In this document: in pieces, positions 38,691-49,172 of the stretch
Layout of the letters: every line of letters starts with the position of its first letter
Numbering within the stretch: position 1 is the first letter of the stretch
Assembly: GCF_014656375.1 (NCBI RefSeq)
Contig: NZ_BNCH01000001.1
Coordinates: forward strand, 868,001-932,000
DNA from: Aliiroseovarius zhejiangensis
Lineage (GTDB): Bacteria; Pseudomonadota; Alphaproteobacteria; Rhodobacterales; Rhodobacteraceae
Reading direction: 5' to 3'
Length of the DNA stretch: 64,000 nucleotides
Position numbers and translations under genes: made by a program
Notes under the pieces: model-generated
What the model was told of the DNA's origin: nothing
Databases searched by the model: none
What the model saw: the letters and a program-made list of their open reading frames with translations, nothing else

Positions 38691-39008
38691 TCAGGACTGA
38701 TCCGTTACATCCGTGATCCACGTCCAGCTTGCGACCGCGCGCGGGAAGCCAAGTGGCCCGATGGCCAGAAACGCCGTCTGGTGCAGATCGTCGACCGGAA
38801 GATTTTCCTCCAATGCACGGCGCGCATGCGAATGCACGGCCCCTTCGGACCCGGCCCCGATGGCTAGCGCAAGCTTGACCAGCCGTTTTTCGCGCGCGCT
38901 CAGCCCACCGGTGTCGGCGATGGCGGAACCAAGGGCGGAATAGGCCGACCAGACATCGGGATGTTGTTTGGCAAGATCGCCAGCGGCACCGGGAAGATCA
39001 TCAGTCAT
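38691..39008 (-). CDS. Carboxymuconolactone-decarboxylase-like (AhpD fold) protein
   Basis: A 105-residue small helical protein with the AhpD/CMD fold: the KRLVKLALAIGAGSEGAVHSHARRALEENLP region corresponds to the active-site helix. The two redox cysteines of AhpD are missing (Gly and His occur instead around SEGAVHSH), while the Glu and the histidines remain, so peroxidase activity is unlikely. It starts 22 bases after the moaA stop and appears to be the last gene of the torA-moeA-DUF2478-moaA unit. The function is unknown; a link to molybdoenzyme maturation or to substrate chemistry is only suggested by position. Confidence 0.8.
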   Translation of the reverse strand: MTDDLPGAAGDLAKQHPDVWSAYSALGSAIADTGGLSAREKRLVKLALAIGAGSEGAVHSHARRALEENLPVDDLHQTAFLAIGPLGFPRAVASWTWITDVTDQS

Positions 39009-39030: not shown

Positions 39031-40047
39031 TTAGCCGCCCAGAGCAGACATGAAGCGTTTCACAGACGGGCGGCAGACGGTACGGGTATCAAAATCATGC
39101 CCTTTGGGTTTAGCCGAAATCGCCTGTCGCAGCAAAGCATCAAGTGCCTGTTCCCCTGCCCCAAGCGCGGGCCGAAGATCGACAGACCCTTCCTGGCCCA
39201 TACAGGTGTAAAGCCGCCCCGTGGCGCTGAGCCGTACGCGGTTGCACAGCGCGCAGAAATTACACGACATCGGCGAGATCAACCCAAGCCGACCGCCGGT
39301 TTCTGCGATACGCAGATAGCGCGCCGGACCTCCGGTGCTGTGGGCAACGGGTGACAGGGTCCACCGGTTTGCCAGCGATGCCTCCAGTACATCAAGTGGC
39401 AGCAGTGTGTCGGCGCGGTTCTGACCTGTCTCGCCCATCGGCATTTCCTCGATCAGGGTCAGATCCATGCCACGGCCATGAGCAAAGCGGATCATGTCGT
39501 CCAACTCGTGCTCGAAGGCGCCTCGGCTGGCAATCGCATTCAGCTTGATCTTCAGCCCGGCGGAGTGCGCCGCATCCAGCCCGGTCAGCACCTTATCCAG
39601 CGTGCCAAGCCGGGTGATCTGGCGATAGCGCGCGGGGTCGAGCGTATCAAGCGAGACATTGACCCGGCGCACACCGTTCTTGGCAAGCTCATCGGCATAT
39701 CGCGCCAACTGGGTGCCGTTGGTGGTCAGGGTCAGTTCGTCCAGCGCACCGGATGTCAGGTGGCGCGACAGATCTGCCAACAGATCCATGACCCCCTTGC
39801 GCACCAGGGGCTCGCCCCCGGTCAGGCGCAGTTTGCGTACGCCACGGCGGATGAACAGATCGGACAGGCGCGCCAGATCCTCGATGCTCAGCAGGTCGCG
39901 TTTGGGCAGGAACACCATGTTTTCGGCCATGCAATAGGTGCAGCGCAGATCGCAGCGGTCGGTCAGGGACAGGCGCAGATATGTCACGGCGCGGCCGAAA
40001 CTGTCAGTCAGCGCAGGCGGGGTGGCATGGGGGGTATCAAGCGGCAT
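39031..40047 (-). CDS. moaA: GTP 3',8-cyclase MoaA
   Basis: The radical-SAM enzyme that starts molybdenum-cofactor synthesis from GTP. The 338-residue protein has the N-terminal radical-SAM motif in RCDLRCTYCMAE (CxxxCxxC), and a C-terminal [4Fe-4S] site in CNFCALCNRVRLSATGRLYTC. It ends with the double glycine (ALGG) needed for catalysis. The start at ATG 40047 is favoured over an in-frame TTG at 40062 because AAAGGAA lies upstream. It overlaps the DUF2478 gene by 11 bases and so is coupled to it. Presence beside torA and moeA indicates a locus-specific Moco supply. Confidence 0.95.
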   Translation of the reverse strand: MPLDTPHATPPALTDSFGRAVTYLRLSLTDRCDLRCTYCMAENMVFLPKRDLLSIEDLARLSDLFIRRGVRKLRLTGGEPLVRKGVMDLLADLSRHLTSGALDELTLTTNGTQLARYADELAKNGVRRVNVSLDTLDPARYRQITRLGTLDKVLTGLDAAHSAGLKIKLNAIASRGAFEHELDDMIRFAHGRGMDLTLIEEMPMGETGQNRADTLLPLDVLEASLANRWTLSPVAHSTGGPARYLRIAETGGRLGLISPMSCNFCALCNRVRLSATGRLYTCMGQEGSVDLRPALGAGEQALDALLRQAISAKPKGHDFDTRTVCRPSVKRFMSALGG

Positions 40048-40564
40048 GACGGTTCCTTTCAATCCGGTCCAGCCAGGTCAGCACGGCGTCGGTGCGCATC
40101 GGAAGATCGCAGGCCATGTCGCCGCCGAACGCGGCCCAGCTTTCGGCATAGGTGGGTCGCACGGCGGTCAGCACCGGCACGTTCAGCGTGATTGCCGCTC
40201 CGATCAGATCACGAAACCCGCGCCCCTCGCTTTCGCCGCGCCCGAAGCGATTGAGGATCAGCAAATCTGCCCCTTGATGCAACTCAGCCTCGATGAAGGC
40301 AGCGCAATCCGCGAGCGCCCCGGGGTGCAGGCGGCAGCCATGCGACCCATTGCCGAGCGGCTGCGAGATGCGAAACACTTTGCCGGAGTTCAGCGTGGTC
40401 AGGTCCATGTCCGCGCAATGACATTCGCCGGTTGCGGACCTGCGGGTTTGCAGCGCACCGCGCACGGTTAACCCGCGTTCGGCGAGGGTTGCAGCGATCC
40501 GGGCAAGAAACCCGTCGATATCCCCGTGGTCAAAGCGGATTGCGGCCAGCGGTCGGTGTCTCAT
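40037..40564 (-). CDS. DUF2478 protein in a molybdenum-cofactor operon
   Basis: A 175-residue cytoplasmic protein of the DUF2478 family, often found beside molybdate or Moco genes and sometimes annotated as nucleotide-binding. Visible elements are AAIRFDHGDIDGFLARIA at the start, the cysteines of ECHCADMDL and SHGCRLHPGALAD, and DLLILNRFGRGESEGRGFRDL, the family's best-conserved segment. No Walker A of classical form is seen in the N terminus. It overlaps moeA by four bases (ATGA) and moaA by 11, so all three are translationally coupled. Its biochemical role is unknown. Confidence 0.85.
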   Translation of the reverse strand: MRHRPLAAIRFDHGDIDGFLARIAATLAERGLTVRGALQTRRSATGECHCADMDLTTLNSGKVFRISQPLGNGSHGCRLHPGALADCAAFIEAELHQGADLLILNRFGRGESEGRGFRDLIGAAITLNVPVLTAVRPTYAESWAAFGGDMACDLPMRTDAVLTWLDRIERNRHAA

Positions 40565-41832
40565 GCTAGCGCCCCCGTGGTGTGGAATGGGTGCCAATGC
40601 AGCCTGTCGCCATGCTTGACGGTCGAAATATTCGCCGCGACGGTTGCCAGGCCGTCGGCCCCGGCCAGCGGCAGAAGCGTGGCGGACACACCCGCGCCAA
40701 GCCGGTGCAGGATAGGCAGGCCCTGCGCGTCATAGCCCCCCAAACGCACCGGAAAGACCTCGGCCCGGCCCGGCTTGCGTTGCCAGTCGAACCCGGCGCA
40801 GGCCGGTGTGGTGGCAAAGGGCGCGGGCTCGGCTCCCGTCATGCGGGCAAGCTGTGCCGACACGAAAAGGTGAAAGCCGACATAGACGGCAAAGGGATTG
40901 CCCGGCAGCCCGGTAAAGGCCGCATTGCCCAATCTGCCGAACATGACGGGCTTGCCCGGTTTGATCGCCACGCGCCAGCCGCTGATGCGACCGCCCGCTG
41001 CAGTCAGCGCCTCGCGGATGTGATCCTTGCCGCCCATCGACACCGCACCTGACGTCACGATCAGATCAAACCGTGTGCCAAGTCCTGCGAAGTGCGCGGT
41101 CGAGGCGACGGGATCGTCCGGCAGTATGCCCAGATCGCTGATTTCGGCGCCATGCTGCGCCAGCAGGGCACAGAGCAGCGGTCGGTTGGCATCAGGAATC
41201 TGCCCCGGTCCACAGGGCCCGGTTGTCACCTCTTCGCCGGTGGAAAACACGGCAACGCGCGGGCGGCGCACGACCTCGATTTGGCGCAACCCGTTGGCCG
41301 CCAGAAGGCCGATATGCCGGGATGCCATGCGCACCCCCGTGCCGAGCAGCACCTCGCCCTTGGCCTGATCACTGCCCGCGCGGCGAATGTTGTCACCCAG
41401 CTTTGGCGGGGACGAGACATGAACCTTGCGGGACTTGTCGATGCATACCTCTCGCATGACGACAGTATCAGCCCCTTCGGGCAGCGGGGCGCCCGTATAA
41501 ATGCGCATCGCCGCACCATTGGGAAGCACACCGGGCGCATCACCCGCCGCCACGGTCCCGGCGACAGGCAGGCAGCAGCGTCCCTCAAGATCGGCAAGGC
41601 GCAGTGCAAAACCGTCCATCGCCGAATTGTCGAAATATGGCATGGCTCGGGCGGCACGAATGGTCGTGGCGGTGGTGCGGCCCAGCGCGTCGGCCAGCGG
41701 CACGGTGTCTTTATCGGTGATCGGGGTGACTTGCGCCAGGGCACGATGCAGCGCATCAGCTACGCTCATCATATCGGTGGTATCAGAGAGGCTTTCGCAG
41801 CTGCACCCACCAGTGACAGAAGCTATCAACAT
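40561..41832 (-). CDS. moeA: Molybdopterin molybdotransferase MoeA
   Basis: Inserts molybdate into adenylylated molybdopterin. The 423-residue protein has the MoeA domain order: domain with PYFDNSAMDGFALR, the IYTGAPLPEGADTVVMRE hinge, the MogA-like domain with VFSTGEEV, TSGAVSMGGKDHIREAL and FTGLPGNPFAVYVGFHLFV. It begins at ATG 41832, which has AGGAGAGG upstream; this gives about 20 residues before the conserved start (MMSVADAL) that include a CxC pair (GGCSCES), an unusual extension. A shorter start at MMSVADAL is possible. It follows torA by 76 bases and overlaps the DUF2478 gene. Confidence 0.93.
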   Translation of the reverse strand: MLIASVTGGCSCESLSDTTDMMSVADALHRALAQVTPITDKDTVPLADALGRTTATTIRAARAMPYFDNSAMDGFALRLADLEGRCCLPVAGTVAAGDAPGVLPNGAAMRIYTGAPLPEGADTVVMREVCIDKSRKVHVSSPPKLGDNIRRAGSDQAKGEVLLGTGVRMASRHIGLLAANGLRQIEVVRRPRVAVFSTGEEVTTGPCGPGQIPDANRPLLCALLAQHGAEISDLGILPDDPVASTAHFAGLGTRFDLIVTSGAVSMGGKDHIREALTAAGGRISGWRVAIKPGKPVMFGRLGNAAFTGLPGNPFAVYVGFHLFVSAQLARMTGAEPAPFATTPACAGFDWQRKPGRAEVFPVRLGGYDAQGLPILHRLGAGVSATLLPLAGADGLATVAANISTVKHGDRLHWHPFHTTGALA

Positions 41833-41908
41833 CGTCCTCTCCTGAATTTTTGTTGAGATCATCGTGGTCAGCGGGCCGGTCAACCGGCCCGCTGTGTTTT
41901 GCCTGCGT

Positions 41909-44578
41909 TCAGTTCGCGTCGGCGGCGTTCTTCATCAGGTAATCCATGACAAGCTCGCGTTCGCTTTCTTCAAGACCGGCACGTTCAAACATGGACGGCA
42001 CGATGCCTTTCCACTGCTGCCGCGTATAGTGCGTTACCTCACGCGGGGCATGACAGACGGTGCAGCGTTCGAAGAACATCTTTTCGCCCGGGGACATGTC
42101 GGCGTAAAGAGCTTCGGTCAGAGCTTCCAGCCGCTCGGCCCCGACCGCTTCATCGTCGATCGCTGCGATTTCCATGTCCTCGATGATGGCCGGTTTTTCA
42201 TATGCCATGTTCGGACCTTCGGGGTCTTCACATTTGCGCATCTCAACCAGCACGGTGTTGGCCGTGGTTGCCTGTGCCAGCCCCGATGATCGCTGCGTCG
42301 AGGTCAGAAAGTTCACCAGACCCGAGTTGCAACGCCCCTTGCTGTCCAGTGACGGCCATGCCCCTTCATAGAGCGAAACCACACCCGGCATGATGTCGTC
42401 GCTGACCACAGCCCCGACGATCACCGTGCCACGGTCGTTGTAGAGCTCGACCAGATCGCCATCTTCGATGCCACGAGATGCAGCGTCCTGCGTGTTGATC
42501 CGCACCGGTTCGCGGCCTTGCACCTTGTAAAGAGCGCGCAGCTTTTCGGACTGGTCCATCTGGCTGTGCAGGCGGAACCACGGGTGGGGCGACACGACAT
42601 GCAACTGACCTTCTTTGGCGTTGCCGAGGTATTCGTGTTTTTCCATCCAGACCGGCATGCCGGGGCAGTCGTCGATGTCCATGGCCGAAATGCTTTCCGA
42701 GAACATCTCGATCTTGCCCGAATCCGTGTGCAGCGGGCTGCCTTCGGGGTCGTTGTAGAATTCGCTGTGGCGGGTCCATTTGCGCGCCGCATCAGGCACC
42801 GGCATCCGGGCATAGCCCTTTTCCCAGAACTCTTTGAACGGTGTTTCCGCGGCAGCCCCCGAGGCTTCATAGGCGAGCTTGATGTGATACATCTTGTCCT
42901 CGCCGTCGGTGAATTGCGCCCACAGCCCCAGCTTGTCGGCCAGGCCTTCGAAGATTTCGTAGTCGGGCAGGCTTTCGCCCACCGGCTCGATCACCTTCTT
43001 CATCGCATAGACCTTGTCGTTCGAATAGGTCCCGCCCGAGGTGATGTCGTCCTGTTCCAGCGTCGAAGCGGCGGGCAGAACGATGTCGACCCAACGGGTT
43101 GCGGCCGTCCACCAAACGTCGACACAGACAATAGTCTCGACCTTCTCAAGCGCACGGATCAGGCGGTTGGTGTCCTGCTGGTGCGACATGAAGTTGTTGC
43201 CGGCGTTGAAGATCATCTTGATGTCGGGATAGGTGTTCGTGAACCCGTTATAGAAGAACTCTTTGCCCGGATTTTCCAGTGCCTCGGTGATGCGCGAGGC
43301 CGGAACAACCTTCTTGATGAAGTTGCGTCCCTGGCTCATGCCGACCGGTGTGCGTGCGCCGCTTTGCGGCATGCCGCCGTTGCCATAGTGCCACGAGAAG
43401 CCAACGCCCGAACCCGGTTTACCGATCTTGCCGGTCAGGGCCTGGAAGTTGACAAGCGACCAATAGGCCATTTCGCCGTGCTGCGCGCGCTGGATTGCCC
43501 ACGATCCGGCAACCTGCGTGTTCGACGTTGCAAGAAGTTCGGCCAGTTCCTTGATCTTCGCTTCGTCAATGCCGGTGATGGCGGACGCCCAGGCCGGCGT
43601 TTTCGGCGTGCCGTCGTCTTCGCCCTTCACATAAGCGATCCACTTATCGGCGCCGACGGTGTATTTGTCCATGTATTCACGGTCTTCCAGACCGTTTTCC
43701 AGAACGTGATAGGCCATGCCCAGGAACAGGGCGGTATCGGTGTTGGGGACGACCTTGACCCATTCTGCGCCAAGGTATTCGTCCGACGCCGTGCGTTGCG
43801 GGTTGATCGAGATGAACTTGACGCCTGCGTCGCGAATTTGTTCCCACGGGCCATACATGCCGTGGTCAGCCACGCGATATTCGATACGGTTGTTCTTGAT
43901 GGGGTCACATCCGACCAACACGAAAACCTCGGTGTTGTCGCGGATGACTTCCCAGGCCGTCTGACCGGAATAGACTTCCATGTCGCCGATCACGCGCGGC
44001 AGAAGCACCTGCCCGGCCCCGGCCGACCAGTCGCCAGCGGTATTGGTGCAGCCACCGATCAGGTTGATCAGGCGACCTTGCAGCACGTTGGGGCGGAACG
44101 AGCCAGCGTTCGACCAGCCGCCATAGGACGAGCTGAAGATCGCTTCGTTGCCGTGGTTGGTGGCAGTGTCCAACAGCGCCTTCGCGGTCAGGCTCCAGGC
44201 CGTGTCCCAATCGACGCGGACATATTCTTCCTTGCCGCGCAACTCGGGTTTGGTGTCGCCGGTTTCCCAGCCTTCCAGATAGGATTTGCGGACCATCGGA
44301 TAGTTGATGCGCGATTTGTCATAGGTGCGGTCCATGACGCCATAGGTCAGCATTTCTGTCGGACGGGCGTCCAGTTCCATGATCGCGTTGACGCCAACCA
44401 GCTTGCCATCGCGCACGACGGCTTCGAACGGGCCATAGTGGGTGGCGTGGAACGCGCGGTCCCGGAACGAGTTGGGGTCAAGTGCGGCAAGCGCGGTCGA
44501 TCCCATCAGATTGGCTGTTCCGAAGAAAGCAGCACCGCCCTGAAGGAAAGCGCGACGGGTGGGTGTGGTAAGTGACAT
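41909..44578 (-). CDS. torA: TorA-family molybdoenzyme with C-terminal haem c domain
   Basis: A periplasmic molybdenum oxidoreductase of the TMAO/DMSO/biotin-sulfoxide reductase group. The 889-residue protein has a Tat signal (PTRRAFLQGG, residues 6-15), then the bis-MGD fold. The Mo ligand is Ser185 in GGDWSAGAGQ. A Tyr-Gly-Gly-Trp element (152-155) in the active-site funnel resembles the Tyr-Gly-Trp of DMSO/biotin-sulfoxide reductases more than TorA. After the usual end of TorA, a domain with CTVCH (Cys839-His843) and HYTRQQWKGIVPSMF follows, matching the C-terminal mono-haem domain of TorC; Met863 may be the axial ligand. The start has AAGGAGG at correct spacing. It is first in a unit with moeA, DUF2478 and moaA, and divergent from torR. 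Confidence 0.9.
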   Translation of the reverse strand: MSLTTPTRRAFLQGGAAFFGTANLMGSTALAALDPNSFRDRAFHATHYGPFEAVVRDGKLVGVNAIMELDARPTEMLTYGVMDRTYDKSRINYPMVRKSYLEGWETGDTKPELRGKEEYVRVDWDTAWSLTAKALLDTATNHGNEAIFSSSYGGWSNAGSFRPNVLQGRLINLIGGCTNTAGDWSAGAGQVLLPRVIGDMEVYSGQTAWEVIRDNTEVFVLVGCDPIKNNRIEYRVADHGMYGPWEQIRDAGVKFISINPQRTASDEYLGAEWVKVVPNTDTALFLGMAYHVLENGLEDREYMDKYTVGADKWIAYVKGEDDGTPKTPAWASAITGIDEAKIKELAELLATSNTQVAGSWAIQRAQHGEMAYWSLVNFQALTGKIGKPGSGVGFSWHYGNGGMPQSGARTPVGMSQGRNFIKKVVPASRITEALENPGKEFFYNGFTNTYPDIKMIFNAGNNFMSHQQDTNRLIRALEKVETIVCVDVWWTAATRWVDIVLPAASTLEQDDITSGGTYSNDKVYAMKKVIEPVGESLPDYEIFEGLADKLGLWAQFTDGEDKMYHIKLAYEASGAAAETPFKEFWEKGYARMPVPDAARKWTRHSEFYNDPEGSPLHTDSGKIEMFSESISAMDIDDCPGMPVWMEKHEYLGNAKEGQLHVVSPHPWFRLHSQMDQSEKLRALYKVQGREPVRINTQDAASRGIEDGDLVELYNDRGTVIVGAVVSDDIMPGVVSLYEGAWPSLDSKGRCNSGLVNFLTSTQRSSGLAQATTANTVLVEMRKCEDPEGPNMAYEKPAIIEDMEIAAIDDEAVGAERLEALTEALYADMSPGEKMFFERCTVCHAPREVTHYTRQQWKGIVPSMFERAGLEESERELVMDYLMKNAADAN

Positions 44579-44658: not shown

Positions 44659-44688
44659 TTGTTCGAAATTGTAAAGAAATGTAACTTC
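44659..44688 (+). promoter_or_regulatory. Three 10-bp-phased repeats between torA and torR (candidate tor boxes)
   Basis: TTGTTCGAAA, TTGTAAAGAA and ATGTAACTTC follow each other head to tail at 44659, 44669 and 44679. All begin (A/T)TGT, one helical turn apart. E. coli TorR binds decameric direct repeats of CTGTTCATAT type, and the first repeat here agrees at six positions. The location, about 80-110 bases upstream of the torA start, suits an activator site; it is close to the torR start as well. Confidence 0.4.
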
Positions 44689-44693
44689 GCATA

Positions 44694-45407
44694 ATGTCTC
44701 AGCATATCCTCATCGTCGAAGATGATCGTGTCACCCGGATGCGCCTTGCCGCTTATCTGCGCGAACAGGGTCATCGCGTCAGCGAGGCCGAGGATGCCGA
44801 GGCGATGGAGCATATCATCGCCATGGACCCCCCCGAACTTCTGCTGGTGGATGTCAATCTGGACGGCAAGGACGGGCTGACCATCACCCGCGAACAGCGG
44901 GCCAATTCGCGGGTCGGGATCATCCTTCTGACCGCGCGTGACGATCAGGTCGACAAGATCGTGGGGCTTGAAATGGGGGCCGATGATTACGTTACCAAAC
45001 CCTTTGACAAGCGCGAGCTGGCCGCGCGGGTCAAGAACTTGCTAGCCCGGATCAACGATATCGGCCTGGCACCCGAAGGGCCGCCCCCGATCAGCGAATT
45101 CGGGCCATGGTGCTTTGATCGCATTCGCCGCCGACTGGTCAGCCAGGCACGGGTCGAACCGCTGACCAGTATTGAGTTCGGCATCCTGAAAGCCCTGATG
45201 GATTACCCCGGCGTTACGCTCAGCAGGGCGCGGATTGCTGACTTTCTGGGCCGGGGGCATCAGAATTCCAACACACGCACAATCGACGTGGTGGTCGGCC
45301 GTCTGCGCAAAAAGATCGAGGATGACCCCGCCTGCCCCGACTGGATCCTGACGGTGCATGGTGAAGGCTATCGCTTCGTTCAACCCTCGACCGCCGAGAC
45401 ATCCTGA
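44694..45407 (+). CDS. torR: Response regulator TorR
   Basis: A 237-residue OmpR-type response regulator that in the Tor system activates torA when TorS is phosphorylating. The receiver domain has Asp10-Asp11, phosphoacceptor Asp53 (LLVDVNLDGKDG) and Lys102 (ADDYVTKPF); the run VGIILLTARDDQVDKIVGLEMGADDYVTKPF closely follows E. coli TorR. A winged-helix DNA-binding domain fills 135-232. It is divergent from torA (115-base gap), and its last 28 bases overlap the end of torS on the other strand. Assignment as TorR, rather than a general OmpR, also rests on adjacent TorS and TorT. Confidence 0.93.
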   Translation: MSQHILIVEDDRVTRMRLAAYLREQGHRVSEAEDAEAMEHIIAMDPPELLLVDVNLDGKDGLTITREQRANSRVGIILLTARDDQVDKIVGLEMGADDYVTKPFDKRELAARVKNLLARINDIGLAPEGPPPISEFGPWCFDRIRRRLVSQARVEPLTSIEFGILKALMDYPGVTLSRARIADFLGRGHQNSNTRTIDVVVGRLRKKIEDDPACPDWILTVHGEGYRFVQPSTAETS

Positions 45408-48181
45408 AGCCCGGCCTGCGCAGCGGCATTTTCGAGCATCGCACAGGCGTCCTGCGCGGCCATCCGGGTGGCGTTTATGCGGGCGGGCGTCAAGGTGCCC
45501 GTGTCGCCTTCGATTTGCGCCAACTGGCTGCGCAACGCCTCCAGCCCATAATTCGACACCGCCCCTTTCAGCCGGTGAGCGAGCCTGCGCCGTGCGTCGG
45601 GATCGGCCCCTTCGATCTCGCGCAGTGCCGAAGGGATATCGCTCAGCAGATCGCGCAGCACATGCGCCGTGGATTCGGCGCCTAGATCGCGGATATCGCC
45701 CTGCACGCATTGAAGCACTGCTTCATAGCCCGGCGTTCCCATGCCCGGCCTGGACGCCTTCTGCGTCGTGTCGTGCATACCTTCCAGCAGTTCAACCAAC
45801 CGGCGCGGCGAGATCGGCTTGGCCAGTATACGGCTGACGCCAAGCCGGTCGCGTTGCGCCTGCGTATCGTCAATCGCGCGTGCGGTCAGCGCGGCCACCA
45901 CCGCATCGCCCCGAATGGGTGCCAGTTGCCGGATCACCTCTTCGCCGGACATATCCGGAAGGCCCAGATCAACGAGGATCAGGTCAAACACCTCTTCCTT
46001 CGCCGCCGCCAGCCCCGCAGCCCCGGTTTCGGCCTCGCGCACTGTGCATCCCAGCCGCTCAAGATAGCCCCGTGCCACCATCCGGTTCACCGCATGATCC
46101 TCGATCACCAGCACAGATTTGCCAATATCTTCGGGCAAGGCGACGTCATGCCGCTCGATCTGGTCCGGGTCGCCGATGGAGACGGGCACACTCAGGGTAA
46201 AGCGGCTGCCCATGCCGGGCTCGCTTTCCACCGTCAGACCGCCACCCATTGCTTCGGTCAGATTGCGCGAGATCGGCAAGCCCAGCCCGGCGCCTTCGGT
46301 CCAACTGCGTGCCACGTCATCTTCGCGGGAATAGGCGTCAAACGCTTGCATCAGGAAAGCCTGGCTCATCCCCACGCCGGTGTCTTGCACAACGAACGAC
46401 AAGACGGCCTGTTCTTCGCTTTGACCCATGGCAAAATCCACCGACAGGGTGACCGATCCCGCGTCAGTGTATTTCACCGCATTGGACAAAAGGTTGGTCA
46501 CGACCTGGCGGATCTTGACAACATCGCCAATCACCACGGGCGGCACGGTCGCCGCCAGATCAACATTGGCCTCAAGCCCCTTTTCCCGGGCCAGGGCCGA
46601 CAGGTAGTGGCCCAGCTGCCCGGTAAACTCGCGCGTGTCGAAATGCACCGGATTGGCCCGGACAGACAAAGGCTCGCTTCCGGAATAGACGATGATATCG
46701 TTGCTCAGCTCCAGCAACTCGCGGGCCGAGGTCAGCGCGGTTGCGATGCGTTTGCGGTGCGCATCGCTCGTTGCCTCGGCCTGCAACAGATCAAGCATCC
46801 CGATCACACCATTGAGCGGCGTGCGGATTTCGTGGCTCATACGGGCCAGAAACTCTGACTTGCCACGATTGGCGGCCTCGGCCTCGGCGCGGGCCTTGTC
46901 CGAGGCGCGCATTTCCTCGACCACCTCACCCGTGCGCGCCACAACCGCCTGCTCAAGGGATTCCTGCAATCGCGCCGCCTGCATCGCCCGCCGGCGCAGG
47001 ATGTTGAGCGCCTTTTCCATGCGCCCGATCTCATCGCGCCCGGAAATGGGCACCGACGTGCCAAACTGCCCCTGTGCCACGGCAATCACCCGGTTCGCCA
47101 CGTTACGCAGGCGCGCGACCAGTTCCTGCCGGGCATAGACCCAGGCCCAGGCGCCCAGCGCGCCTGACAACACCACCAGCGCCAGCAGCCCGTTGGCCAG
47201 ACGCGCCGTCAGGGTGTTGGCCCGGTCGATCTGCGCCAGGCTCGTCTGCTGCACCTGTTGGCGGACCGTTTCTGCATGTAGCGACAACGACTCCACCCGG
47301 CGTTGCAGCTCTGCGCTGTCGTCGGCAACGGCTTGTTTCAGCTCCAGCACGCGCGACGAAAGCGCAAGCAGACCCTCGGCTCCCAGCGCCTGCTCAAGCC
47401 TCGCGAGCAGCCTGAGCGCATCGTTGCGACCCGCCTCTGTCGGCAAGAAAGGCACGCGTCGCAAGAACAGGGCGTGACTGCGCTCAAACTGGCCGCGCGC
47501 CTCGGCAATCTGCTCGGGTCGGGTCAGTTGCGGCACCTGCTGCAATCCCAGGCGCAACGCCTCGGCGGCGCGCAACAGCTCTGTCAGCCGGTCAAAGGCA
47601 AAGAAATCCCGATCCGCCAGCCGATCCAGCCGGGGGCGTGTATCAACGCCCGGACTGGCGTGAATGTCGGCAATCCCGGCGGTGATCTTCAATCGCGCCA
47701 GATCAAGCTCTGCCTCGAGCAGCGCGCCCAGTTCCCGACCGATATCGTTGGCCACCCTTGTCTGTTCCCGCAATCGCGCATCAAGTTCCAGCGCCTCCTT
47801 GGCGTGGCGCGACATGGTGTCGACAATGGCCAGAATGTCGGATTGCATCGGGTTGGCGGGCGGTTTTTCACTGATCCCTTCCAGGGTCTGCACGCCGTCC
47901 TGAATGCCCGTGACGGTCTGTTTCAGCGCGGCGGACAGATCATCCTGGGCCGTGGCCGTGTCGGCCTGGGCGAAAGACACCGCAAGCGAACGGACCACAT
48001 TGGCCTCGACCGCGATCCGCCCCGACAGAGTCATCGCGGGGCTGTTCTGCTCGATCAGACGGCTGTTGGAGACGATCAGATAGCGGTTGACGCCTACCGC
48101 GGCCACGCCCACCATAACAGCCAGAAACCCCATCAGGGAGAACACGAGCATTAGCTTCTTGTCGAAAGACTGGCGTTGCAT
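45380..48181 (-). CDS. torS: Hybrid sensor histidine kinase TorS
   Basis: A 933-residue unorthodox kinase. Layout: first membrane helix (about 10-33), periplasmic helical sensor (34-327), second helix (about 328-350), HAMP (350-402), dimerisation domain with His450 (FLARMSHEIRTPLNGVIGM), ATPase domain (to about 668, with NAVKYTD, DTGVGM and GAGLGLPIS), receiver with Asp738 (ILVDLGLPDMSGEEV), and HPt domain with His869 (HRLKGAVSNYG). This His-Asp-His chain to TorR is the E. coli arrangement. It lies convergent with torR and head-to-head with torT. TorS works with the periplasmic TorT, which binds TMAO. Confidence 0.93.
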   Translation of the reverse strand: MQRQSFDKKLMLVFSLMGFLAVMVGVAAVGVNRYLIVSNSRLIEQNSPAMTLSGRIAVEANVVRSLAVSFAQADTATAQDDLSAALKQTVTGIQDGVQTLEGISEKPPANPMQSDILAIVDTMSRHAKEALELDARLREQTRVANDIGRELGALLEAELDLARLKITAGIADIHASPGVDTRPRLDRLADRDFFAFDRLTELLRAAEALRLGLQQVPQLTRPEQIAEARGQFERSHALFLRRVPFLPTEAGRNDALRLLARLEQALGAEGLLALSSRVLELKQAVADDSAELQRRVESLSLHAETVRQQVQQTSLAQIDRANTLTARLANGLLALVVLSGALGAWAWVYARQELVARLRNVANRVIAVAQGQFGTSVPISGRDEIGRMEKALNILRRRAMQAARLQESLEQAVVARTGEVVEEMRASDKARAEAEAANRGKSEFLARMSHEIRTPLNGVIGMLDLLQAEATSDAHRKRIATALTSARELLELSNDIIVYSGSEPLSVRANPVHFDTREFTGQLGHYLSALAREKGLEANVDLAATVPPVVIGDVVKIRQVVTNLLSNAVKYTDAGSVTLSVDFAMGQSEEQAVLSFVVQDTGVGMSQAFLMQAFDAYSREDDVARSWTEGAGLGLPISRNLTEAMGGGLTVESEPGMGSRFTLSVPVSIGDPDQIERHDVALPEDIGKSVLVIEDHAVNRMVARGYLERLGCTVREAETGAAGLAAAKEEVFDLILVDLGLPDMSGEEVIRQLAPIRGDAVVAALTARAIDDTQAQRDRLGVSRILAKPISPRRLVELLEGMHDTTQKASRPGMGTPGYEAVLQCVQGDIRDLGAESTAHVLRDLLSDIPSALREIEGADPDARRRLAHRLKGAVSNYGLEALRSQLAQIEGDTGTLTPARINATRMAAQDACAMLENAAAQAGLQDVSAVEG

Positions 48182-49172
48182 TCCCGCAACCTACGCAAGG
48201 CGTTGGACGACTGCAATCGTGGCCATTGTCTTCGCTCTGGTGCTGACGGGTCTGCGGGCAGAGCCGGTTTCTGCCAACATCCCCCGGCAGGTCTGCGTGC
48301 TGGTGCCACATTTCAAAGATGAATACTGGCTCAGCGTCGGATACGGGCTTGAGCAGGAAGCCCGGCACCATGACATCGACCTGCTCTTTTACGAGGCTGG
48401 CGGCTACCGCGCCCTCGCCACCCAGATCGCCCAGCTGAACGATTGTGCGGCCCGTGGGGTCGACGCGATCCTGATCGGTGCCGTCACCTCGGACCATGCC
48501 GAATTGCTGTCGGCCATTCGCGACGTGTCGTCCCGGGTGCCGGTTCTGGGATTGGTCAATGAGCTGCGCAGCCCCGACCTGTCGGGGCGCATCTGGGTCG
48601 ATTGGCGGCAAATGGGCCTGGTTCTTGGCAGCTATCTGGCAGATCTGCACCCGGCGGACACGGTCCCGCAGCGCGCGGTGCTCGTGTCTGGCCCCGAAGA
48701 GGCAGGGTGGACCGGCCCGCTGGAACAGGGCCTGCGCAAGGGGCTGGCGACAAGCAGCATAGAGATCATCGCCGTTTTCAGTGCCGATACCGGCCTGCGT
48801 CAGCAACTGGCGCTTGTGGAAGAGGCCTTTGCCACCATTCCGAAAATCGACCTTCTGATCGGCAGCGCGCCCGCCGTCGAGGCCGCAATCGGCCTGATCA
48901 GCAACACGGGCCAGAACAGTGATGTCAGGCTCGCCTCGACTTACATCAGCCACACGATCAAGCGCAGTTTGACGAATGGCCGGGTCCTCGCGGTTCCGTT
49001 TGATGACCCCAGACAACAAGGCATGCTGGCGATCCGCCAATTGCTGTCTGTTGCGGGAAAAAGGCAGCACGCCGCGATGGGCGGGCCGGAGATCGTGTTG
49101 GTCAGCGGTCAAGACGACGTGATCGACAAAGTTGTACTGTCCCCGGCCGACTACTTTCCCGTTATCCAGTAA
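48159..49172 (+). CDS. torT: Periplasmic TMAO-binding protein TorT
   Basis: The ligand detector of the Tor system, similar to type I periplasmic binding proteins. The mature part opens VCVLVPHFKDEYWLSVGYGLEQEA, matching the TorT hallmark (YWLSVxYG), followed by EAGGYRALATQIAQL, IWVDWRQMGLVLGSYL and LIGSAPAVEAAIGLI. The start is not certain: a TTG at 48159 gives a good basic n-region and hydrophobic signal (about 17-35) and overlaps the torS start by 23 bases; a GTG at 48219 gives a shorter signal. torS and torT 5' ends face each other with no room between, which makes a shared control region unlikely unless promoters lie inside the genes. Confidence 0.85.
   Translation: MSKDWRCIPATYARRWTTAIVAIVFALVLTGLRAEPVSANIPRQVCVLVPHFKDEYWLSVGYGLEQEARHHDIDLLFYEAGGYRALATQIAQLNDCAARGVDAILIGAVTSDHAELLSAIRDVSSRVPVLGLVNELRSPDLSGRIWVDWRQMGLVLGSYLADLHPADTVPQRAVLVSGPEEAGWTGPLEQGLRKGLATSSIEIIAVFSADTGLRQQLALVEEAFATIPKIDLLIGSAPAVEAAIGLISNTGQNSDVRLASTYISHTIKRSLTNGRVLAVPFDDPRQQGMLAIRQLLSVAGKRQHAAMGGPEIVLVSGQDDVIDKVVLSPADYFPVIQ

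Follow-up and report, generated by a model that had tools for sequence, protein, structure and literature searches.

Among the closest described relatives of the system considered here are the TorC-TorA (torCAD) and TorY-TorZ pairs of Escherichia coli, whose reductase bodies share 37–39% identity, and whose mono-haem domains share 26–36% identity, with the corresponding parts of a protein encoded in the window (the whole 64,000-nucleotide stretch of Aliiroseovarius zhejiangensis DNA that was analysed). In E. coli the haem domain resides on a separate, membrane-bound pentahaem protein, torD follows torA and the torTSR regulatory genes lie nearby; the window also shows torTSR-type neighbours, whereas its haem domain is fused to the reductase, and neither a pentahaem protein gene nor torD was found beside the gene. 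The C-terminal domain of E. coli TorC (TorC_C) has been proposed to donate electrons directly to TorA, with the N-terminal half (TorC_N) doing the binding, according to a 2024 study (PMC11727998). In that study, the TorC_C-TorA complex gave no diffracting crystals and models placed the haem 35 or 17 Å from the molybdenum; apo-TorC is also described as binding the periplasmic region of TorS and preventing TorR phosphorylation in E. coli (PMC11727998).

A second arrangement is found on plasmids of Cereibacter, Rhodovulum and Neorhizobium, where the gene of a DorA/TorA reductase stands beside that of a TorC_C-type haem protein. In these systems the reductase is unfused, and TorC_C and the hinge follow a dihaem half on the separate protein. 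The trihaem cytochromes encoded upstream of such unfused dorA/torA genes (L086:3251-4888, L125:645-2306 and L126:681-2306; 541–553 aa) possess this dihaem half instead of the NapC-like tetrahaem half, and then the TorC hinge and TorC_C (TIGR02162 positions 203–385). In sulfite dehydrogenase SorAB a Mo enzyme is likewise served by a small haem c protein of its own, and the haem domain studied here weakly matches SorB (4 of 25 members); SorAB belongs to another Mo family and, unlike the fused reductase, keeps its haem c on a separate subunit. Closer to the organism, Arata, Shimizu and Takamiya purified the TMAO reductase of Roseobacter denitrificans OCh114 (1992, J Biochem 112:470-475). The enzyme reportedly had two subunits of ~90 kDa, contained a Mo cofactor and a haem c with a potential of about +200 mV, and took its electrons directly from cytochrome c2.

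The gene in the window and the parts of its product are as follows.

41909..44578, minus strand: fused TMAO reductase gene (torA-type with a C-terminal haem c domain), 889 aa
44486..44578, minus strand: twin-arginine signal region, residues ~1–31, with RRAF at residue 8
42218..44449, minus strand: reductase body, residues 44–787, from end-to-end alignment with solved DMSO/TMAO reductases
44024..44026, minus strand: Ser185 (in GDWS), aligned with Ser147, the Mo ligand in the DMSO reductase of Rhodobacter (GDYS/GDWS)
42101..42217, minus strand: linker, residues 788–826, acidic (10 D/E, 2 K/R)
41912..42100, minus strand: TorC_C-like mono-haem domain, residues 827–889 (63 residues), from TIGR02162 and BLASTP
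42050..42064, minus strand: CTVCH haem c attachment motif, residues 839–843, from the sequence motif
41990..41992, minus strand: Met863, invariant in the alignments

One uninterrupted reading frame runs to a single stop at its end, and its plus-strand reading is meaningless; the initial annotation had given the interval correctly, and the coding strand is the minus strand. The twin-arginine signal that it had proposed is also borne out, RRxF being kept in 43 of the 44 relatives with a readable N-terminus (the remaining one has RRTV). The reductase body contains three Pfam domains above their curated cut-offs (PF00384, 162.7 bits; PF01568, 82.9 bits; PF18364, 47.2 bits), and the molybdopterin and dinucleotide-binding domains by which membership of the DMSO/TMAO reductase family (bis-MGD S/N-oxide reductases) is judged are both present. 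Against TIGR00509 the fused protein scores 850 bits (E 1.7e-255), below the NCBIfam cut-off of 1017.55, and on this score it is clear kin of the TIGR00509 S/N-oxide reductases while standing outside the curated subfamily. The TorA equivalog scores also fall below their curated cut-offs (TIGR02164, 661.7 vs 1465 bits; PRK15102, 699.5 vs 909), and across the NCBIfam S/N-oxide reductase and TorA models E-values run from 1e-255 to 1e-198 with scores under the curated cut-offs. Judged by these models the protein is a divergent, TorA-like relative of TorA, and TorA in the strict sense is excluded. Its substrate is most likely TMAO, for which the torTSR neighbourhood is only suggestive.

The serine at the molybdenum-ligand position, Ser185 here, is invariant in 30 of 30 aligned sequences; its ligand role and the number Ser147 in the Rhodobacter enzyme are presumably those known from solved structures. 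Loss of the Mo-ligand serine was considered and is refuted, the ligand being the conserved Ser185; MAFFT and BLAST had disagreed on the placement of Ser and Asn in the loop SYGGWSNAG (residues 151–159). The same loop was rejected as the Mo-ligand loop, since alignment to solved reductases equates it with Tyr114/Trp116. The fused enzymes exhibit YGGW or YGAW (residues 152–155, window 44114–44125) where most unfused relatives have YGW, which we take to be Tyr114/Trp116 in DMSO reductase numbering; a residue inserted in this way beside the active site might affect substrate choice.

Beyond the acidic linker, the initial annotation had recognised a TorC-like mono-haem domain fused to the TorA-type enzyme, and this architecture stands. 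The C-terminal stretch matches the last ~60 positions of the TIGR02162 torC model (positions 323–382 at E 5.6e-9 for the stretch alone, E 1.8e-7 in the whole protein, both scores far below the whole-protein cut-off of that model), the part of the model matched being confined to 323–384, and BLASTP against four E. coli proteins aligns it with the C-terminus of TorY (36% identity, E 8e-9) and with TorC (26%, E 8e-6; both small-database E-values). Additionally, the torC model matches 25 of 25 aligned C-termini. TIGR02162 returned no match to the TorC tetrahaem half and hinge in the fused protein, which is not a pentahaem protein of the TorC/DorC type, and nothing in the haem domain scored above a Pfam cut-off. 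The motifs previously read from the sequence lie where they had been placed, with CTVCH followed by the QW-G-x-M pattern (QWKGIVPSM, beginning at residue 855) and the YLMKNA ending (at 880); the chance expectation of one CxxCH in the fused protein is ~0.0014, on composition only. Both cysteines, the histidine, Trp856 and Met863 are invariant in a 13-sequence alignment that includes TorC and TorY, and CxxCH and the conserved Trp and Met stand at the TorC/TorY spacing that marks a TorC_C-type domain. Met863 is likely to be the second axial haem ligand. AlphaFold2 models, with helices around CxxCH, were of low confidence both for the full-length protein (30-row alignment, mean pLDDT 67.3) and for the C-terminal 116 residues (25-row alignment, mean pLDDT 68.7), and Foldseek on the low-confidence haem-domain model gave no credible match (two matches, both with E above 8).

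The fusion is real, conserved and coherent. Six peptide patterns, one of them inside the haem domain, defined 50 loci with relatives of the gene; all 50 hold at least one reductase-body pattern and none was found through the haem motif alone, and therefore the conservation of CxxCH is no product of the haem-domain search pattern. Where the C-terminus can be read, CxxCH is kept in 48 of 48 relatives; two loci stand outside the count, L037 because it is broken at that point and L052 because it ends earlier. With the window included, CxxCH-x12-W-x6-M occurs in 49 of 49 C-termini. Homologues of the same architecture, by which the initial annotation had proposed to check the fusion, are present in dozens of genomes.

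Among 295 genomes that represent each genus of the window's family by a single member, 29 match the last 89 residues of the fused protein. A fused-type C-terminus (identity of at least 44%, alignment starting at residue 7 or before) is found in 12 of the 295, 8 of them in frames of at least 700 aa and 4 in shorter frames; the other 17 of the 29 harbor TorC_C-like matches in frames of 119–637 aa. At the level of the phylum, at least 103 of 398 sampled genomes match the haem domain, many weakly; the domain lies in frames of at least 885 aa in at least four of them (G000, G023, G210 and G361), and at least 24 matches are in frames of 367–439 aa, the size of TorC. The six best whole-protein records in the plasmid collection come from Leisingera, Defluviimonas, Shinella, Paracoccus, Azospirillum and Photobacterium (55–85% identity), with alignments that reach residue 887 or 888, and the other 34 plasmid matches listed are all under 40% identity and end at residue 834 or before. 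The relative in Photobacterium sp. DA100 (L085:8992-11642) is divided between two frames that overlap, on a plasmid record of 2.1 Mb, which may be a broken gene or a sequencing error; this split record is the sole evidence here for the gene in a gammaproteobacterium. In a tree of the reductase bodies, built with the haem domain omitted, 20 fused and 12 unfused rows are split by one branch with a support of 100/100, which fits one origin of the fusion. G210 and G125 each possess a divergent fused reductase (~55% identical) plus a separate full-length TorC.

Around the gene, the window holds the following features.

44694..45407, plus strand: torR-type response regulator (TorR model 234.5 bits, below the cut-off of 275)
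45380..48181, minus strand: torS-type hybrid sensor kinase (TIGR02956, E 1.1e-124, 417.6 bits, below the cut-off of 676.5)
48087..49172, plus strand: torT-type periplasmic binding protein (PRK10936, 307 bits, above the cut-off of 200; start uncertain, the frame overlapping torS)
44660..44684, no strand: candidate operator for TorR, with TTACAT-type repeats at a 10-base interval and then GAACA, recognised by eye
40561..41883, minus strand: moeA, molybdenum insertion (Pfam; neighbour conserved)
40037..40597, minus strand: DUF2478 protein (Pfam; neighbour conserved)
39031..40062, minus strand: moaA-type protein, named from a relative annotated moaA in Leisingera
38691..39008, minus strand: carboxymuconolactone decarboxylase (CMD) family protein (Pfam; neighbour conserved)

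The order torT-torS-torR / torA-moeA-DUF2478-moaA-CMD recurs among the 50 loci, three of which span less than 6 kb: TorS and TorR are each present in 36, TorT in 34, and at least one of moeA, DUF2478 and moaA in 27. TTACAT-type repeats with GAACA or a similar sequence recur between torR and torA in most torS-bearing loci and are not apparent in the five inspected loci without torS; the element is proposed as a candidate TorR operator. The E. coli tor box differs from it.

The initial annotation had also remarked that the window has no torC, which is correct and extends to the whole genome searched, where the TorC model finds just a NapC-type protein, a NirT-type protein and the fused domain. 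A separate torC elsewhere, which it had named as an observation that would count against the proposal, is thus absent from this genome, two NapC-family proteins being found instead; their neighbourhoods are presumably nap and nir clusters (named by eye). No torC stands beside the fused gene in any of the 50 loci. Just two frames in these loci contain two or more CxxCH motifs, that of a NirT-type gene towards the far end of L003 and one of 820 aa in L043, both more than 6 kb from the fused gene. A neighbouring torD was sought with TorD-type queries from E. coli, Rhodovulum and Neorhizobium, which matched nothing in the 50 loci at E 1e-3; in this search E. coli and Rhodovulum TorD miss each other, and a very divergent chaperone could escape it. 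The genome has a single TorD/NarJ-family (PF02613) gene (G000:C8:6569-6934), situated close to the gene of another molybdoenzyme, so that maturation of the fused reductase may proceed with no TorD of its own.

We read the fused protein as a periplasmic S/N-oxide reductase, most likely for TMAO, that has the final haem of the TorC chain built in as its electron entry and is fed mainly through cytochrome bc1 and soluble carriers, and we give this reading a probability of roughly 0.7. The sequence itself shows the reductase body, a TorC_C-like domain whose CxxCH is accompanied by an invariant Met, the single clade and the TorC-free genome. Haem c would be attached after export; electrons would leave the quinol pool mainly via cytochrome bc1, be taken up by a soluble one-electron carrier, either of the cytochrome c2 type or a pseudoazurin where the cluster encodes one, and reach the Mo bis-MGD centre through the fused haem, the domain perhaps swinging on the acidic linker as proposed for E. 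coli TorC_C. With TorC_N proposed to do the binding in E. coli, the covalent fusion would stand in for the docking that TorC achieves through its membrane-bound tetrahaem half, making a binding half needless and leaving the haem free to accept electrons from a soluble carrier. The TMAO/TMA potential is ~ +130 mV, and with the haem reportedly at ~ +200 mV the last electron step would therefore be slightly uphill.

The donor is the point at which another explanation has to be weighed, namely that membrane NapC/NirT-family tetrahaem quinol dehydrogenases of the nap/nir pathway, instead of bc1 and soluble carriers, feed the fused haem. NapC-family donors serve several reductases, two such proteins are encoded in the genome itself, and a survey of 54 genomes with the fused gene (from 45 of the 50 loci and ten family-sample genomes; 52 distinct, two pairs having identical coordinates) found a NapC/TorC N-domain match, and so at least one candidate, in 20 of them, full-length TorC being present in 5 of the 54. 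On the other hand, the remaining 34 (32 of the 52 distinct genomes) gave no match to this domain at E 1e-4; some assemblies are incomplete and weak cases can escape, and in G325 and G336 not even the fused domain was matched at the threshold used, yet the NapC-type proteins of the other 20 exceed that threshold by a wide margin. We consider the NapC/NirT route rather unlikely. The bc1 Rieske protein was found in 30 of the 32 NapC/TorC-free genomes (the two misses are 78% complete) and in 34 of 36 genomes overall, a set that includes those of the window, R. denitrificans, R. litoralis and G361. As bc1 is widespread in these bacteria in any case, finding the Rieske protein says no more than that such a route is there. 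The Leisingera cluster contains an annotated pseudoazurin gene, with relatives in 6 of 50 other loci and none in the window. Given the NapC-family proteins in 20 of the 54 genomes and in the window's own, and full-length TorC in five, the donor may differ between species. L066 encodes a 612-aa NirT-type protein (L066:7018-8856) with a tetrahaem NapC-like half and a long C-terminal half that bears one more CxxCH; its gene lies in a nir-like cluster and adjoins a cupredoxin-like gene (names by eye).

The initial annotation had suggested a different function for the fusion, in which the haem domain is mainly a sensor: its unloaded form would bind TorS and damp the tor genes, which would let the enzyme signal how far it is loaded with haem. 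The behaviour of E. coli apo-TorC toward TorS and TorR, as described in PMC11727998, provides the precedent, and a TorS-type kinase is present in 36 of the 50 loci. This reading is nevertheless highly improbable, and the proposed feedback is not supported as the reason for the fusion: among 19 genomes with the fused gene, TorT scores above its curated cut-off in 9, while 7 show no match and 3 weak matches, and the fused proteins of all ten cases without TorT above cut-off (L028, L029, L030, L034, L038, L049, L119, L120, L121 and L080) keep the haem motif, which argues that the domain is not kept for TorS. The 19 were chosen to include loci without torTSR, and these counts give no rate. TorS feedback as the reason for keeping the domain is unlikely on these comparisons, and it is possible that the haem domain still talks to TorS where both are present. 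Finally, the idea that the tail carries no working haem, being vestigial or a product of faulty framing or assembly, is extremely improbable: although a Pfam call above cut-off is absent and the structure models are weak, the open frame and CxxCH-W-M in all 49 C-termini, with presence in many genera, speak against such a tail, and the frameshift or assembly error at the domain junction that the initial annotation had named as a ground for refutation is excluded by the same open frame and by conservation across dozens of genomes.

As to the proposed bc1-fed reductase with a built-in haem, the genome of R. denitrificans OCh114 holds the same fused gene as the window. R. denitrificans OCh114 and R. 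litoralis OCh149 each carry it (890 aa, 82% identical) as the only match at E 1e-60, and the predicted mature mass of their protein is ~95.5 kDa. The fused gene family is probably the gene behind the haem-containing TMAO reductase of R. denitrificans and would link that reportedly haem c-bearing enzyme to a gene family; if that enzyme is as reported, a close relative has in effect already supplied the main experimental test of the haem.

The initial annotation had pointed out that Tat exports folded protein whereas haem c is attached to an unfolded chain; this is sound general reasoning, and the fused protein is a Tat-type precursor that also needs haem c. Nothing on this conflict was found in the open-licence literature. 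No prior description of the fusion was recognised in the open-licence literature either, including the available parts of PMC11727998, PMC3141670 and PMC9391519, and one may well exist in print elsewhere.

TorC_C has been seen here on three carriers, the tetrahaem TorC/TorY proteins, the trihaem protein and the reductase itself, and its haem is constant across all three, which supports a role as the last haem before molybdenum. A broader interpretation, for which we consider the odds to be even, is that TorC_C is a plug-in last haem mounted on these three carriers, and that the fused clade performs a TorC- and TorD-free TMAO respiration via bc1 and soluble carriers that would conserve more energy for each electron than the route of E. 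coli does, with the transient TorC_C-TorA contact contained in one chain. The interest of the system lies in its clean architecture, in the lack of TorC and of any TorD found nearby, and in TorC_C-TorA electron transfer within a single chain; how electrons get from TorC_C to TorA's Mo centre is a matter that structural work has yet to settle, and the natural fusion offers a single-chain target for it. TMAO, the precursor of fish odour, is here presumably respired by a marine bacterium with an enzyme whose haem domain is on a separate partner protein in E. coli, and the fused family suggests a bc1-dependent, and hence more energy-conserving, TMAO respiration in marine Roseobacters.
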